Below, piece by piece: positions 36,920 to 42,680 of a stretch of DNA of 64,000 bases (position 1 is its first letter; each line of letters starts with the position of its first letter). The stretch is from Aromatoleum aromaticum EbN1 (GTDB lineage Bacteria; Pseudomonadota; Gammaproteobacteria; Burkholderiales; Rhodocyclaceae): the NCBI RefSeq assembly GCF_000025965.1, contig NC_006513.1, forward strand, positions 2,232,001 to 2,296,000. Reading direction: 5' to 3'. The translations under genes and the position numbers were made by a program. The notes below the pieces were generated by a model. The model was given only the letters and a program-made list of their open reading frames with translations. It had not been told where the DNA came from and made no database searches.

Positions 36920-37444
36920 ATGGCTAAGCAACAAAGCAAGCGACCGCAAGCGGCGGATGAGCGCGACGACGGCCTGCGGGAGAAAATGGTCGCGATCAAT
37001 CGCGTGACCAAGGTCGTCAAGGGCGGCCGGATCCTCGGTTTTGCGGCGCTTACGGTTGTCGGTGATGGCGACGGCGGCGTCGGAATGGGCAAGGGCAAGT
37101 CGCGCGAAGTTCCGGTGGCGGTGCAGAAGGCGATGGACGAAGCGCGTCGCAAGCTCAAGAAGATTTCGCTCAAGAACGGCACGTTGCAGCACGCGATCGT
37201 CGGCAAGCACGGCGCGGCCTCCGTGCTGATGCAGCCGGCTCCTAGCGGCACCGGCATCATCGCTGGTGGTCCGATGCGGGCGGTGTTCGAAGTGATGGGC
37301 GTGACCGACGTGACCTGCAAGTGCCTTGGCTCCGCCAATCCTTACAACGTCGTGCGTGCGACGCTCAACGGTCTTCTGGCGATCAACACGCCGGCCGAGA
37401 TCGCTGCCAAGCGTGGCAAGTCGGTCGAAGAGATCCTGGGGTAA
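36920..37444 (+). CDS. rpsE: 30S ribosomal protein S5
   Basis: A 174-residue fidelity protein. Signatures: [40 protein letters not shown] and the C-terminal [20 protein letters not shown]. The N-terminal loop has no change typical of spectinomycin resistance (VKGGRILGF is intact). The N-terminus is a few residues longer than in E. coli. Confidence 0.98.
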
Positions 37445-37447
37445 GCG

Positions 37448-37630
37448 ATGTCCGAGAAAACGATCAAGGTCACGCTCGTGAAGAGCGTGATCGGCACCAA
37501 GCAGTCGCACCGTGCAACCGTCCGTGGCCTTGGCCTGCGACGCACGAACCACTGTGTCGAACTGCAGGACACGCCCGAAATTCGCGGCATGGTGAACAAG
37601 GTGTCGTACCTGCTGAAGTGTGAGGGTTGA
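37448..37630 (+). CDS. rpmD: 50S ribosomal protein L30
   Basis: A 60-residue protein of the short bacterial type. Signatures: [40 protein letters not shown] and [17 protein letters not shown]. Separated from rpsE by 3 nt; rplO starts 1 nt after the stop. Confidence 0.97.
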
Positions 37631-37631
37631 T

Positions 37632-38069
37632 ATGCGACTCAATACGATAAAGCCCGGCGCCGGCTCGAAATCGGCGGCAAAACGCGTGGGCCGCGGCATT
37701 GGCAGCGGTCTGGGCAAGACCTGCGGGCGCGGCCACAAGGGCCAGAAGTCTCGTGCCGGTGGTTTCCACAAAGTCGGTTTCGAAGGCGGCCAGATGCCGC
37801 TGCAGCGCCGGCTTCCGAAGCGCGGCTTCGTGTCGCTGACGGCTGCGCGCAAAGTCGAGGTGCGCCTGTCGGAACTCGACAAGCTGCCCGTCGACGACAT
37901 CGATCTGCTGGTGTTGATGCAGGCGGGCGTCGTTCCGGCCGATGCGCTGTCGGCGAAAGTCGTGCTGTCCGGGACGATCGGACGCAAGATCACGCTGCGC
38001 GGCATCGGTGCGACCAAAGGCGCGCTGGCGGCGATCGAAGCTGCCGGCGGCTCGGTAGCGACCGCGTAA
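37632..38069 (+). CDS. rplO: 50S ribosomal protein L15
   Basis: A 145-residue assembly protein. The ATG at 37632 follows GAGGGTTGAT and gives [20 protein letters not shown]; a GTG 12 nt upstream lies inside rpmD and is rejected. The Gly/Arg-rich [20 protein letters not shown] core is present. Confidence 0.97.
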
Positions 38070-38084
38070 CCAAGGGAAAGCGAA

Positions 38085-39410
38085 GTGGCCAATCCTGCTG
38101 CGACGCTGGGGGCGTCCGGGCGTTTCGGGGATCTGAAACGCCGCGTCCTGTTCCTGCTCGGTGCACTCCTCGTGTACCGGATCGGCGGGCACATTCCTGT
38201 TCCCGGCATCGATCCGGCGCGACTGTCCGAGCTTTTCCAGTCGCAGGCGGGCGGCATCCTCGGCGTATTCAACCTGTTTTCCGGCGGTGCGCTGTCACGG
38301 TTCACGATTTTCGCGCTCGGCATCATGCCGTATATCTCGGCGTCGATCATCATGCAGCTGATGACGGTCGCAGTGCCGCAGTTGGAAGCGCTGAAGAAAG
38401 AGGGTGAGGCGGGGCGGCGCAAGATTACGCAATACACGCGCTACGGGACGGTCGCGCTGTCCCTCGCGCAGTCGCTCGGCATTGCGATCGCGCTCGAGAG
38501 CCAGCCCGGGCTCGTGCTCGATCCGGGGCTCATGTTCCGTTTCGTGACCGTCGCGACGCTGGTCACGGGCACGATGTTCCTGATGTGGCTGGGCGAGCAG
38601 ATCACCGAGCGCGGCATTGGCAACGGCATTTCGCTGATCATTTTCGCCGGTATCGCCGCAGGTTTGCCGAGCGCCATCGGCGGGCTGTTCGAGCTGGTGC
38701 GCACCGGAGCGATGCATCCTTTCACGGCATTGCTGATCTGTGTGCTCGTGGTACTGGTGACTGGCTTCGTCGTGTTCGTCGAACGGGGTCAGCGCAAGAT
38801 CCTGGTGAATTACGCAAAGCGCCAGGTCGGGAACAAGATCTACGGCGGGCAGAGTTCGCATTTGCCGTTGAAGCTCAACATGGCAGGGGTCATACCGCCG
38901 ATTTTTGCTTCGAGCATCATCCTGTTTCCGGCGACGCTGGGGCAATGGTTCGGCGCCAGCGAAGGCATGACCTGGCTTCGCGATATCTCCTCGACCCTGG
39001 CACCAGGACAGCCGATCTACGTGATGCTTTATGCTGCGGCGATCATGTTTTTCTGTTTCTTCTATACGGCGCTGGTGTTCAACGCCAGGGAGACGGCGGA
39101 CAACCTGAAGAAGAGCGGTGCTTTCGTTCCGGGAATTCGACCCGGCGACCAGACCTCGCGCTATATCGACAAGATCCTTACGCGGCTGACTCTCGTGGGA
39201 GCGGTGTACATCACTCTGGTGTGCCTGCTGCCCGAGTTCCTGATCCTTCGCTGGAACGTTCCGTTCTACTTCGGCGGGACATCGCTGCTGATCATCGTCG
39301 TCGTGACGATGGATTTCATGACACAGGTGCAGGCTTACGTGATGTCCCATCAATATGAGAGTTTGCTGAAGAAGGCCAACTTCAAGGGCGCGGGCCTTCC
39401 CACCAGGTAA
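38085..39410 (+). CDS. secY: Preprotein translocase subunit SecY
   Basis: A 441-residue channel of the Sec export system with ten hydrophobic segments. The start is GTG at 38085 ([20 protein letters not shown]). Signatures: [18 protein letters not shown] at membrane segment 1, the plug region [20 protein letters not shown], and the ribosome/SecA-binding loops [20 protein letters not shown] and [20 protein letters not shown]. It is cotranscribed with rplO (15 nt). The broken infA begins 3 nt after the stop. Confidence 0.98.
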
Positions 39411-39413
39411 CTC

Positions 39414-39634
39414 ATGGCGAGAGGGATGTAATCGGCGAGATGCAGGGCGAGATGACCGAGAACCTGCCCGACGCAATGTTCCGCATCCGGCTCGAGAACT
39501 GACAGGTGGTTCTCGGATACACCTCGGGAAGAATGCGGATGCACTGCCTCCACGTTCTTCCCGGCGACAAGGTCACTGTGCAACTGACGCCCTACGACCT
39601 GACAAAGGCCCGGATCGTTTTCCGGACCAGGTAA
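39414..39634 (+). pseudogene. infA: Broken translation initiation factor IF-1 gene
   Basis: This occupies the normal infA place between secY and rpmJ. The ATG at 39414 reaches a stop after five codons (TAA 39429-39431). One base is missing around codons 3-4; in the shifted frame the IF-1 sequence resumes as VIGEMQGEMTENLPDAMFRI then RLEN. A TGA at 39500-39502 stands where IF-1 has a conserved glycine (ENG). It continues as [20 protein letters not shown] and [20 protein letters not shown] to the TAA at 39632. There is also an in-frame Gly insertion (VIGEM for VIEM) and unusual changes (HCLHV for HYIRI). Two independent disabling lesions plus substitutions indicate real decay. A second infA must exist elsewhere because IF-1 is essential. 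Confidence 0.93.
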
Positions 39635-39655
39635 TCAAGAAACTGGAGTAACAAA

Positions 39656-39769
39656 ATGAGAGTTCAGGCTTCGGTAAAGCGGCTTTGCCGCAACTGCAAA
39701 ATCGTGCGTCGTAAAGGCGTGGTTCGCGTGATCTGCATCGACCCGCGTCACAAGCAGCGCCAGGGTTGA
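39656..39769 (+). CDS. rpmJ: 50S ribosomal protein L36
   Basis: A 37-residue protein too short for many gene finders. [20 protein letters not shown] is the family N-terminus and [11 protein letters not shown] the end. The zinc ligands C11, C14, C27 and H32 are all kept, so it is the zinc-binding form. Its ribosome site is TGGAGTAACAAA, independent of the broken infA. The -35 box of the next promoter overlaps its stop codon. Confidence 0.97.
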
Positions 39770-39794
39770 TTCGCTGGCGTTCACGTATTATTAT
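39766..39794 (+). promoter_or_regulatory. Alpha operon promoter (rpsM-rplQ)
   Basis: TTGATT (39766-39771) and TATTAT (39789-39794) are spaced by exactly 17 bp in an AT-rich stretch unusual for this DNA. The -35 covers the rpmJ stop. The rpsM ATG lies 28 nt after the -10. A promoter in this place agrees with separate expression of the alpha group in other proteobacteria. Confidence 0.75.
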
Positions 39795-39822
39795 TTAATG
39801 TTTCGCTTTTTGGGGTAATCGA

Positions 39823-40185
39823 ATGGCCCGTATTGCTGGGGTAAACATTCCCAACCACAAGCATGCCGAGATCGCGCTGACCGCCATCTATGGAATTGGC
39901 CGTTCGCGTGCTCAGAAGATTTGCGATGCTGCCAACGTCGTGCGTTCCGTCAAGATGAAGGATCTCACCGAGTCCGACATGGAACGGTTGCGTGATGAAG
40001 TGGCGAAATTCATTGTCGAAGGTGATCTTCGTCGCGAGACGACGATGAACATCAAGCGACTGATGGATCTTGGTTGCTATCGTGGGGTTCGTCATCGTCG
40101 CGGCCTGCCGCTTCGTGGCCAGCGCACCCGCACCAATGCGCGTACCCGGAAAGGGCCGCGCAAGGCAATCGCCGGCAAGAAGTGA
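39823..40185 (+). CDS. rpsM: 30S ribosomal protein S13
   Basis: A 120-residue head protein that contacts the P-site tRNA. Signatures: [35 protein letters not shown] and the basic tail [20 protein letters not shown]. The start ATG is preceded by TGGGGTAATCGA. First gene of the alpha group. Confidence 0.98.
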
Positions 40186-40197
40186 TAGGAATAGATA

Positions 40198-40587
40198 ATG
40201 GCTAAAACTGCTGCGAAAGTTCGCAAGAAGGTCAAGAAGAACGTCGCCGAGGGCATCGCCCACGTGCACGCGAGCTTCAACAACACGATCATCACTATCA
40301 CCGACCGCCAGGGCAATGCGTTGTCCTGGGCGACCTCTGGTGGTGCCGGCTTCAAGGGCTCACGGAAAAGTACCCCGTTTGCCGCCCAGGTCGCGGCCGA
40401 AGCTGCCGGCAAAGCTGCACAGGAATGTGGCGTCAAGAACCTGGAGGTCCGCATCAAGGGCCCGGGGCCCGGGCGCGAATCCGCTGTCCGTGCACTCAAT
40501 GCGCTGGGCATGAAGATCTCCAGCATTACCGACATCACGCCGATCCCGCATAACGGCTGCCGCCCGCCGAAAAAGCGCCGCATCTGA
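40198..40587 (+). CDS. rpsK: 30S ribosomal protein S11
   Basis: A 129-residue platform protein with the E. coli length. Signatures: [40 protein letters not shown] and [18 protein letters not shown], whose C-terminus is invariant. 12 nt after rpsM. Confidence 0.98.
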
Positions 40588-40600
40588 CAAGGAGTTTAAC

Positions 40601-41230
40601 GTGGCTCGTAATCTGGATCCCAAGTGCCGTCAGTGCCGTCGCGAGGGCGAAAAGCTGTTTCTGAAGGCCGAGAAGTGCTTCACCGATAAATGTGCAATCG
40701 AGCGCCGGGCGTACGCGCCCGGCCAGCACGGTCAGCGTTCCGGTCAACGGATGTCCGGCTATGGCGTGCAGTTGCGCGAAAAGCAGAAGATCCGTCGCCT
40801 GTATGGCGTGCTCGAAGCGCAGTTCCGCAAAGTCTATGCCGAGGCCGAGCGCCGTCGTGGCCAGACCGGTGAGAACCTGCTGCAACTGCTCGAAGGGCGC
40901 CTGGATTCGGTCGTCTATCGTATGGGCTTTGGCGGTTCGCGTGCCGAATCGCGCCAGCTCGTGCGGCACAACGGCATCCTCGTGAACGGCAAGCGGGTGA
41001 ACATCCCGTCGTATGTCGTTCGGCCGGGTGACGTCGTCGAACTCACCGAAGGGTCGCGCGGCCAGCTGCGCGTCAAGGCTGCGCTCGAAGCAGCTGCTTC
41101 CCGTGGTTTCCCGGAATGGCTGGATGTCGATGCAAAGGCCGGCAAGGGCACCTTCAAGGCATATCCGCAGCGCGCTGAACTGCCGCCGACGATCAATGAA
41201 GGCCTGGTCGTCGAACTGTATTCCCGCTAA
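40601..41230 (+). CDS. rpsD: 30S ribosomal protein S4
   Basis: A 209-residue assembly initiator and, in E. coli, repressor of the alpha operon. The start is GTG at 40601 behind AAGGAGTTTAAC. Signatures: [40 protein letters not shown] and the S4 RNA-binding domain [20 protein letters not shown]. The N-terminal Cys pair (CRQC) may bind zinc, as in some S4 types. Confidence 0.98.
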
Positions 41231-41269
41231 CGGGTTTGCCTGAAGAATCAAAGATCCGAGGAACTGCTG

Positions 41270-42250
41270 ATGCAAAGCAATTCGCTGCTGAAACCCCGCA
41301 TCATCGACGTCCAGAGTGTGTCGCCGGTCCAGGCCCGCGTCACGATGGAGCCGTTCGAACGCGGTTTCGGCCATACCCTGGGGAATGCGCTGCGGCGCAT
41401 TCTCCTGTCCTCGTTGCCGGGCTATGCGCCGACCGAAGTGTCCATCGAAGGCGTGCTGCATGAGTATTCCACTCTTGACGGCGTGCGCGAGGACATCGTC
41501 GATCTGCTGTTGAACCTCAAGGGCGTGGTGCTCAAGCTCCATAGCCGCAGCGAGGCGACGCTGCGCCTGGCGAAGTCTGGCGATGGTGTGGTCACCGCGC
41601 GCGACATCGAGGTTGGGCACGACGTGGAAATTATCAACCCGGATCATGTGATTGCGCACCTCGCGCCGGGCGGAAAGCTCGACATGCAGATCAAGGTCGA
41701 GGAAGGCCGCGGTTACGTGCCGGGCAACGTTCGTCCGGCTGCCGGCGACACCAAGACCATCGGCCGCGTCGTGCTCGATGCATCCTTCAGCCCGGTGCGG
41801 CGCGTGAGTTACCTGGTCGAGAGCGCCCGGGTGGAACAGCGGACCGATCTCGACCGGCTGGTGATCGACATCGAAACGAACGGCGCAGTGGATCCCGAGG
41901 AGGCCATCCGCTATGCGGCGCGCGTCCTGATGGATCAGCTGTCGGTGTTCGCCGATCTCGAAGGCACTGCACCGGTCGTCGAACAGTCCGCGGCGCAGAC
42001 GATCGACCCGGTGCTGCTGCGCCCGGTGGATGATCTGGAGCTGACGGTTCGCTCGGCCAACTGCCTGAAGGCCGAAAACATCTACTACATCGGTGACCTG
42101 ATCCAGCGCACGGAGACCGAGCTGCTGAAGACGCCGAACCTCGGCCGCAAGTCGCTGAACGAGATCAAGGAAGTGTTGGCCTCCCGCGGGCTGACGCTCG
42201 GAATGAAACTGGAAAACTGGCCGCCGGCCGGGCTCGAGAAGCTCGGTTGA
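41270..42250 (+). CDS. rpoA: RNA polymerase subunit alpha
   Basis: A 326-residue subunit that starts polymerase assembly. The N-terminal domain has the dimer motif [20 protein letters not shown]. The C-terminal domain (about 245-320) has [20 protein letters not shown] and [20 protein letters not shown] for UP-element and activator contact. 39 nt after rpsD, with a GAGGAACTGCTG ribosome site. Confidence 0.98.
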
Positions 42251-42275
42251 GGCAGCCGGTGAGTGAGGAATAAAA

Positions 42276-42680
42276 ATGCGTCACCGCAGCGGTCTTCGCA
42301 AACTTAACCGTACCAGCAGCCACCGCCAGGCGATGTTCCGCAACATGGCCAACTCGCTGCTGCGTCACGAAGTCATCAAGACGACTCTGCCCAAGGCCAA
42401 GGAATTGCGCCGTGTGGTCGAGCCGCTGATCACCCTCGGCAAGAAGCCGAGCCTGTCGAATCGGCGTCTGGCGTTCAACCGGATGCGCGACCGCGAAATG
42501 GTGGTCAAGCTGTTCGACGTGCTGGGTCCGCGTTTTGCCGAGCGTAATGGCGGCTATCTACGCATCCTGAAGTTCGGTTTCCGCGACGGCGACAATGCGC
42601 CGCTGGCGTTGATCGAACTGCTCGACCGGCCGGATGAAGGCGAGGAAGGGGCGAACGTGAGCGAGGCGGCTGCGGCCTGA
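42276..42680 (+). CDS. rplQ: 50S ribosomal protein L17
   Basis: A 134-residue protein at the tunnel exit. Signatures: [40 protein letters not shown] and [20 protein letters not shown]. The extra acidic tail ([18 protein letters not shown]) is not in E. coli. It is the last gene of the supercluster, followed by a strong terminator. Confidence 0.98.

Follow-up and report, generated by a model that had tools for sequence, protein, structure and literature searches.

Repeated decay of infA, the gene encoding initiation factor IF-1, is reportedly known from chloroplasts, where pseudogenes and parallel losses have been noticed and the spare copy is nuclear. For bacteria, the available part of a published analysis infers that infA was part of the spc operon in the ancestral proteobacterium, and describes losses of rpmJ and rpsN from the S10-spc-alpha cluster with a pre-existing homologue elsewhere (PMC8046335). 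For inverted repeats, the available parts of two other studies give arm homogenisation and spacer inversion as marks of template switching (PMC8604942, PMC8794818). We found no published account of infA operon loss in the bacteria considered here, a search that covered the open-licence literature and thus leaves novelty unproved.

The window that we analysed is a stretch of 64,000 nucleotides on contig C1 (4,296,230 bp) of the Aromatoleum aromaticum EbN1 genome (G000; 4,727,255 bp in three contigs). In it, a secY gene (38085-39410, + strand; GTG start, 441-aa ORF), whose product is 73-92% identical to 80 homologues among the matches listed, lies upstream and rpmJ, encoding L36 (39656-39769, + strand), downstream of the spc-operon copy of infA (39414-39634, + strand). 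A preliminary description, made from the letters alone, had presented this infA as a decayed pseudogene inside an otherwise intact operon, which is borne out for secY and rpmJ by their open reading frames and for infA by its frame lesions and in-frame stop. From 39414, the original frame reads ATG GCG AGA GGG ATG TAA and is thus closed after five codons (TAA at 39429-39431, + strand), as had been noticed. Intact relatives have ATGGCGAAGGAAGACGTNATC at the infA start and the window is one base shorter before GTAATC, which confirms the proposed one-base loss shifting the frame. The IF-1 frame (39434-39634) contains a single stop, the TGA (39500-39502, + strand) already seen to replace the conserved Gly of the ENG motif, for which relatives carry GGA. 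Comparison with relatives likewise recovered HCLHV instead of HYIRI and the extra Gly before EM, a 3-nt insertion ahead of GAGATG. A single open frame of about 72 codons, as expected of a functional infA, is absent from the locus. The remnant scores 65.6 bits against PF01176 (cut-off 30.2), so that its homology to IF-1 is not a matter of chance, and it combines family homology, a broken frame and relaxed selection, the last in its 5' part and not in its last 75 nt, as characteristic of pseudogenes. An Rfam scan of positions 37000-42500 produced two matches, one before rpsM and one at 40704, and none at 39400-39656, so a known Rfam element at the remnant was rejected; so was a sigma-70 promoter inside it, the sole match in 38900-39850 being located at 39766-39794. 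The match before rpsM, an Alpha_RBS-like leader (39788-39855, + strand; RF00140), lies just under the gathering score (35.6 bits versus 38, E 1.4e-05), and the alpha operon may here be controlled in such a manner.

Operon infA could be read in 17 of 17 Aromatoleum genomes, being intact in 11 and broken in six. Five of the latter (G000, G001, G002, G003, and G009) form one clade (support 100/100), and the comparison of the interval among sister species that had been suggested revealed a common altered 5' stretch: AAGGAAGA after ATGGCG is replaced by a shorter G-rich stretch of differing length, with further stops following. These stops vary, with TGA at the Gly codon (G000), TGA at a Ser codon (G002), TAG at the same Ser codon (G003 and G009), and TAG further on (G001); in G003, the start ATG once more shares the frame of the IF-1 body, as far as the later TAG. 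The sixth broken copy (G004) has a separate lesion, since it kept the normal start and lost one base mid-gene. Outside Aromatoleum, broken operon copies were found in G177, G257, and G259 (genus g37, Zoogloea), G082 and G163 (g67), G085, G222, G238, G115, G096, and Massilia aurea. Nine genera, Aromatoleum included, hold both intact and broken operon copies, which implies that the loss recurred. Genomes beyond Aromatoleum were chosen for their weak infA matches, so that no frequency of loss can be given; in one 30-genome set picked in this way, 16 of the 30 had no rpmJ match, possibly reflecting missing contigs. In the 30-locus set that yielded G096, seven failed the rpmJ pattern and the other 23 comprised 22 intact copies and one broken; among 20 newly read loci, two (L167 and L168) failed and 18 were intact. 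The 80 loci among the matches listed represent a spread of betaproteobacteria and not the closest relatives; eight are unclassified, of which four were read (Massilia aurea broken, two intact, and L152 without infA) and four dropped. Reduced secY-rpmJ intervals without recognised infA also occur among these 80 listed loci, measuring 18 nt in at least one and 73-144 nt in at least ten, and the interval of G083 is only 30 nt long, again without recognised infA. Visual inspection suggests that vestiges of the infA 3' end (...TYGTGTTYCG...) persist 5' of rpmJ in L105, L116, L138, L141, and L155. Four of 204 good-quality genomes of the family gave no infA match at all, possibly because of missing contigs. 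Judged from these genome comparisons, the loss of operon infA is old, clade-wide, and paralleled in other genera; the loss envisaged in the preliminary description therefore stands, and its picture of a snapshot taken in one genome does not.

The decay is uneven along the gene. By parsimony, the five-genome clade accumulated 42 changes in the 147 columns of the 5' part, four in the last 75 nt, and 92 in secY, compared with 52, 25, and 561, respectively, in the 11 intact Aromatoleum genomes, giving clade-to-intact ratios of 0.81, 0.16, and 0.16. The 5' part has changed at about five times the rate expected from secY (p 7e-11) and the 3' end has not (p 1.0), the two parts of the remnant differing from each other (p 0.004). 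Changes at codon positions 1/2/3 of the 5' part number 19/14/9 in the five remnants versus 2/0/50 in the 11 intact genes (Fisher 7.9e-15), so the 5' two-thirds of the clade remnants evolve without codon constraint; the last 75 nt of the Aromatoleum remnants show 0/1/3, just four changes in all. The relaxed selection that had been read from the extra substitutions is thus correct for the 5' two-thirds and not for the last third of the remnant. These observations also decide between decay and two ways of rescuing a live gene. That a sequencing or assembly error disrupted an intact infA has in its favour that the gene is short, and nothing else, whereas the same altered 5' stretch recurs in four sister genomes, which have stops of their own, and the codon-position pattern is neutral; as a stretch common to sister species is not a sequencing error, we reject this explanation, against which the earlier description had argued, and consider its probability negligible. 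Recoding, by which a programmed frameshift and stop read-through would yield full-length IF-1, could account for an IF-1 frame that keeps its 65.6 bits with one stop and for the restored start of G003. However, the stops differ among G000, G001, G002, and G003/G009, the frame offsets differ among remnants, and changes at codon positions 1 and 2 are unrestrained in the 5' part, so that full recoding is rejected as very improbable.

In the Aromatoleum, Zoogloea-genus, g67, G085, and M. aurea remnants, the final sixth of the gene matches that of an intact relative at an identity of 0.86-0.97, with G222 (0.68), G115 (0.70), and G238 (0.78) as exceptions; identity in earlier sixths drops to 0.65 (G009), 0.11 (G177), 0.50 (G257), 0.51 (g67), 0.05 (G085), and 0.64 (M. 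aurea). When identity was profiled by distance from the rpmJ start in 13 remnants, including two of the six from Aromatoleum and mostly using the best-matching relative as reference, every 20-nt bin from 0 to -60 was at least 0.85 identical to the intact relative in ten of them, G222, G238, and G115 failing to reach this value across the range. Because of the best-match references and because 6 of 13 intact pairs also reach 0.85 in all three bins, this profile tests a gradient and not an absolute level. The conserved run before rpmJ spans about 60 nt, and about 95 nt in Aromatoleum; in the window it corresponds to the 3' end of the infA remnant plus the spacer (39561-39655, + strand), including the 60 nt (39596-39655, + strand) kept in 10 of the 13 profiled remnants. 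We infer that this stretch is probably the translation-start region of rpmJ. In G096, the infA stop is situated at -79 (in L204) and the region from 0 to -60 is spacer, kept at 0.90/1.00/0.90 with the infA end eroded, although the same bins reach only 0.70/0.95/0.65 against another relative (L207); as the conserved part is here not infA, this case speaks against IF-1's own C-terminus as the cause of conservation. The 30-nt interval of G083 indicates that the conserved stretch is dispensable. A stable RNA fold as the cause of leader conservation was rejected, since no unusual fold of the rpmJ leader was detected in 17 sequences (z -1.6 to +2.4). This lack of a fold counts against the start-region reading, as does the scarcity of additional synonymous conservation over the final 12 codons of intact infA, which was absent from 38 Rhodocyclaceae-type sequences (p 0.55) and weakly present in 30 other intact sequences (p 0.018). 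The pattern of the last third in Aromatoleum is codon-like, and a translated C-terminal piece of IF-1, a mini-ORF coupling ribosomes to rpmJ, therefore stays a rival: from the 5' part to the last 75 nt, changes at positions 1 and 2 drop from 33 to one (p 2.6e-6) without a clear drop at position 3 (9 versus 3, p 0.74), these p values having been computed with 98 and 49 sites for a 5' part that has 96 and 48. Several remnants have an open frame that begins with GTG (VQLTPYDL.. or similar) and runs to the old stop, but short open frames arise by chance. Moreover, the g67 remnants have an extra base in the last codons and yet keep the nucleotides after it, the peptide is lost in G115 and M. aurea, and the G096 case applies here as well. 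Such a mini-ORF being distinctly unlikely, we favour the retention of this stretch as the probable start region of rpmJ.

The middle of the gene contains an inverted repeat, H2 (39524-39564, + strand), derived from the codons SGKMRMHYIRILPG (encoding MRMHYIRI), whose predicted folding energy is -24.7 to -32.0 kcal/mol in the clade's five remnants, compared with -13.3 to -24.0 in the remaining 12 Aromatoleum sequences. In nulls that used two composed ancestors and treated substitutions as independent, an equal number of random changes mostly weakened H2, the clearest case being G009 (observed -31.1, null -11.3, 0/2000); G002, with the same (first) ancestor as G009, was not significant (0.26). 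H2 was more stable than expected from randomly placed changes in 6 of 11 remnants (at or below 0.05; combined p 1.1e-5, and 0.0026 over the nine without G000 and G082), under a null that likewise takes substitutions as independent and with combined values that count G257/G259 of the Zoogloea genus and G000/G004 of Aromatoleum as separate. A second hairpin, H1, formed by intact infA codons 10-20 and more stable than a column null in 88 sequences, is nearly perfect with a GAAA loop in the dead copy of Massilia aurea (L127). Two sister remnants document how H2 changes. The loop of G001, TAGTG, is the exact reverse complement of the G002 loop, CACTA, between identical arms, and this inversion creates the in-frame TAG of G001; the arms are perfect in both (17 and 16 nt), and of only seven differences in 607 columns between these genomes three constitute the loop inversion. 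The left arm of G000, G001, and G002 is the reverse complement of CATCCGCATTCTTCC and differs by two to four changes from the left arms in the 12 Aromatoleum sequences outside the clade, and changes in H2 keep pairing in G000, G001, G003, and G009. The repeat thus displays arm homogenisation and, in one case, spacer inversion. Template switching at the DNA level is therefore strongly indicated by one clear event as the way in which this putative hotspot mutates, and the remaining changes are consistent with it; as the marks match, a perfect hairpin needs no selection here. The competing view that H1 and H2 are RNA elements held by selection after the death of the gene can invoke the combined H2 value together with that of H1 (3.5e-4 over 11 remnants), compared with 0.44 over nine for a control segment, as well as the 88 intact genes, where both hairpins beat the column null (z -5.0 and -3.6; other windows 0.2, -1.0, and -1.5). 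But the loop inversion of G001 is a mutational signature, the control segment of that same genome is itself at 0.010, H2 does not fall below 0.05 in five of the 11 remnants, and G000, G003, and G009 retain mismatches. In addition, the column null ignores relatedness, a null based on codon usage gave a deviation in a control window as well (z -4.7), and group-wise z values for H2 in intact genes are only -0.3 to -0.7. Local hairpins also occur at p at or below 0.05 in 6 of 17 loci, and z is below -1 in 7 of 13 reduced intervals, and we consider selected RNA elements unlikely, template switching being the reading that we retain. Among the 13 intervals left after infA loss, those of L107, L117, L134, and L152 contain strong hairpins (z -2.2 to -4.0, the interval length of L152 being a guess) and others contain none.

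As the preliminary description had anticipated, infA exists elsewhere in the genome: a whole-genome search detected two more full-length, stop-free frames, one with an ATG start (C1:3979430-3979618; PF01176 84.1 bits) and one with ATC at the start site (C1:1087496-1087687; 79 bits), which makes the operon copy redundant in gene content. Three infA-like places per genome were found in 17 of 17 Aromatoleum genomes, and ATG starts the equivalent of the first copy in the four genomes read. The second (L002, L211) adjoins what reads as a cold-shock protein frame, and a GGAG precedes its ATC by eight bases. ATC occupies the start site of this cold-shock-adjacent copy in 14 of the 15 genomes read, a count that leaves out G005 and G015 (the motif search gave no match for L249); the 15th, G012, has TTG, in what seems to be a different paralogue. 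Similar copies in G223, G177, and G109 (genus g37), their similarity judged by eye without a tree, start with ATG in all three. With the operon copy dead, the AUC-site infA and one ATG infA would be all that remains. A copy outside the operon can suffice, as G082 and G163 (g67; single-contig genomes listed as 100% complete) live with a sole, off-operon infA with an ATG start and a wrecked secY-rpmJ interval. The AUC site is also found in species with an intact operon copy and so did not arise because of the loss. The infC gene has an AUU start codon that is gated by initiation fidelity. We tentatively suggest, while holding it for somewhat doubtful, that IF-1 in Aromatoleum is supplied by extra-operonic genes, one of which would have a conserved AUC start and a translation gated by initiation fidelity in the manner of infC. 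The GTC start repressed by IF3 in Streptomyces, described in the available part of PMC5472188, is a precedent for such start-codon control. It would be unusual for the gene of an initiation factor to have a conserved AUC start, and no published account of a non-AUG start of infA was found in the open-licence literature. Were the AUC in use, IF-1 too would come under control by initiation fidelity.

Taken together, it is highly probable that operon infA is a pseudogene with spare copies, its 3' end kept for the start of rpmJ and its hairpin shaped by template switching. IF-1 would come from the two other copies, the last 60-95 nt or so would survive for the translation start of rpmJ and not because of IF-1, and arm homogenisation and loop inversion could perfect the hairpin without selection on RNA. 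Against this stand the facts that loop inversion was seen a single time, that the remaining compensations would agree with selection as well, and that one of the two spare copies is devoid of a standard start codon. The operon copy of an essential factor appears to be expendable once paralogues exist, which has happened repeatedly, and dead copies separate the needs of the next gene, visible as a conserved leader, from those of IF-1 and expose hairpin-driven mutation where protein selection is off. The loss itself is of a known, ordinary kind. It resembles that of chloroplast infA, said to have decayed repeatedly where another copy supplies IF-1, with the difference that the chloroplast spare is reportedly nuclear and the one found here is a chromosomal paralogue. 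With the losses of rpmJ and rpsN it shares the operon cluster and the explanation by a homologue elsewhere, although the available part of that work covers gammaproteobacteria and bacilli, whereas here infA is caught mid-decay in several genera of betaproteobacteria (PMC8046335). Finally, H2 resembles the template-switch sites described in the available parts of PMC8604942 and PMC8794818 in the exact inversion of a loop between perfect arms and in arms becoming complementary, and differs from them in its location within a pseudogene, which is no longer under selection for its protein.
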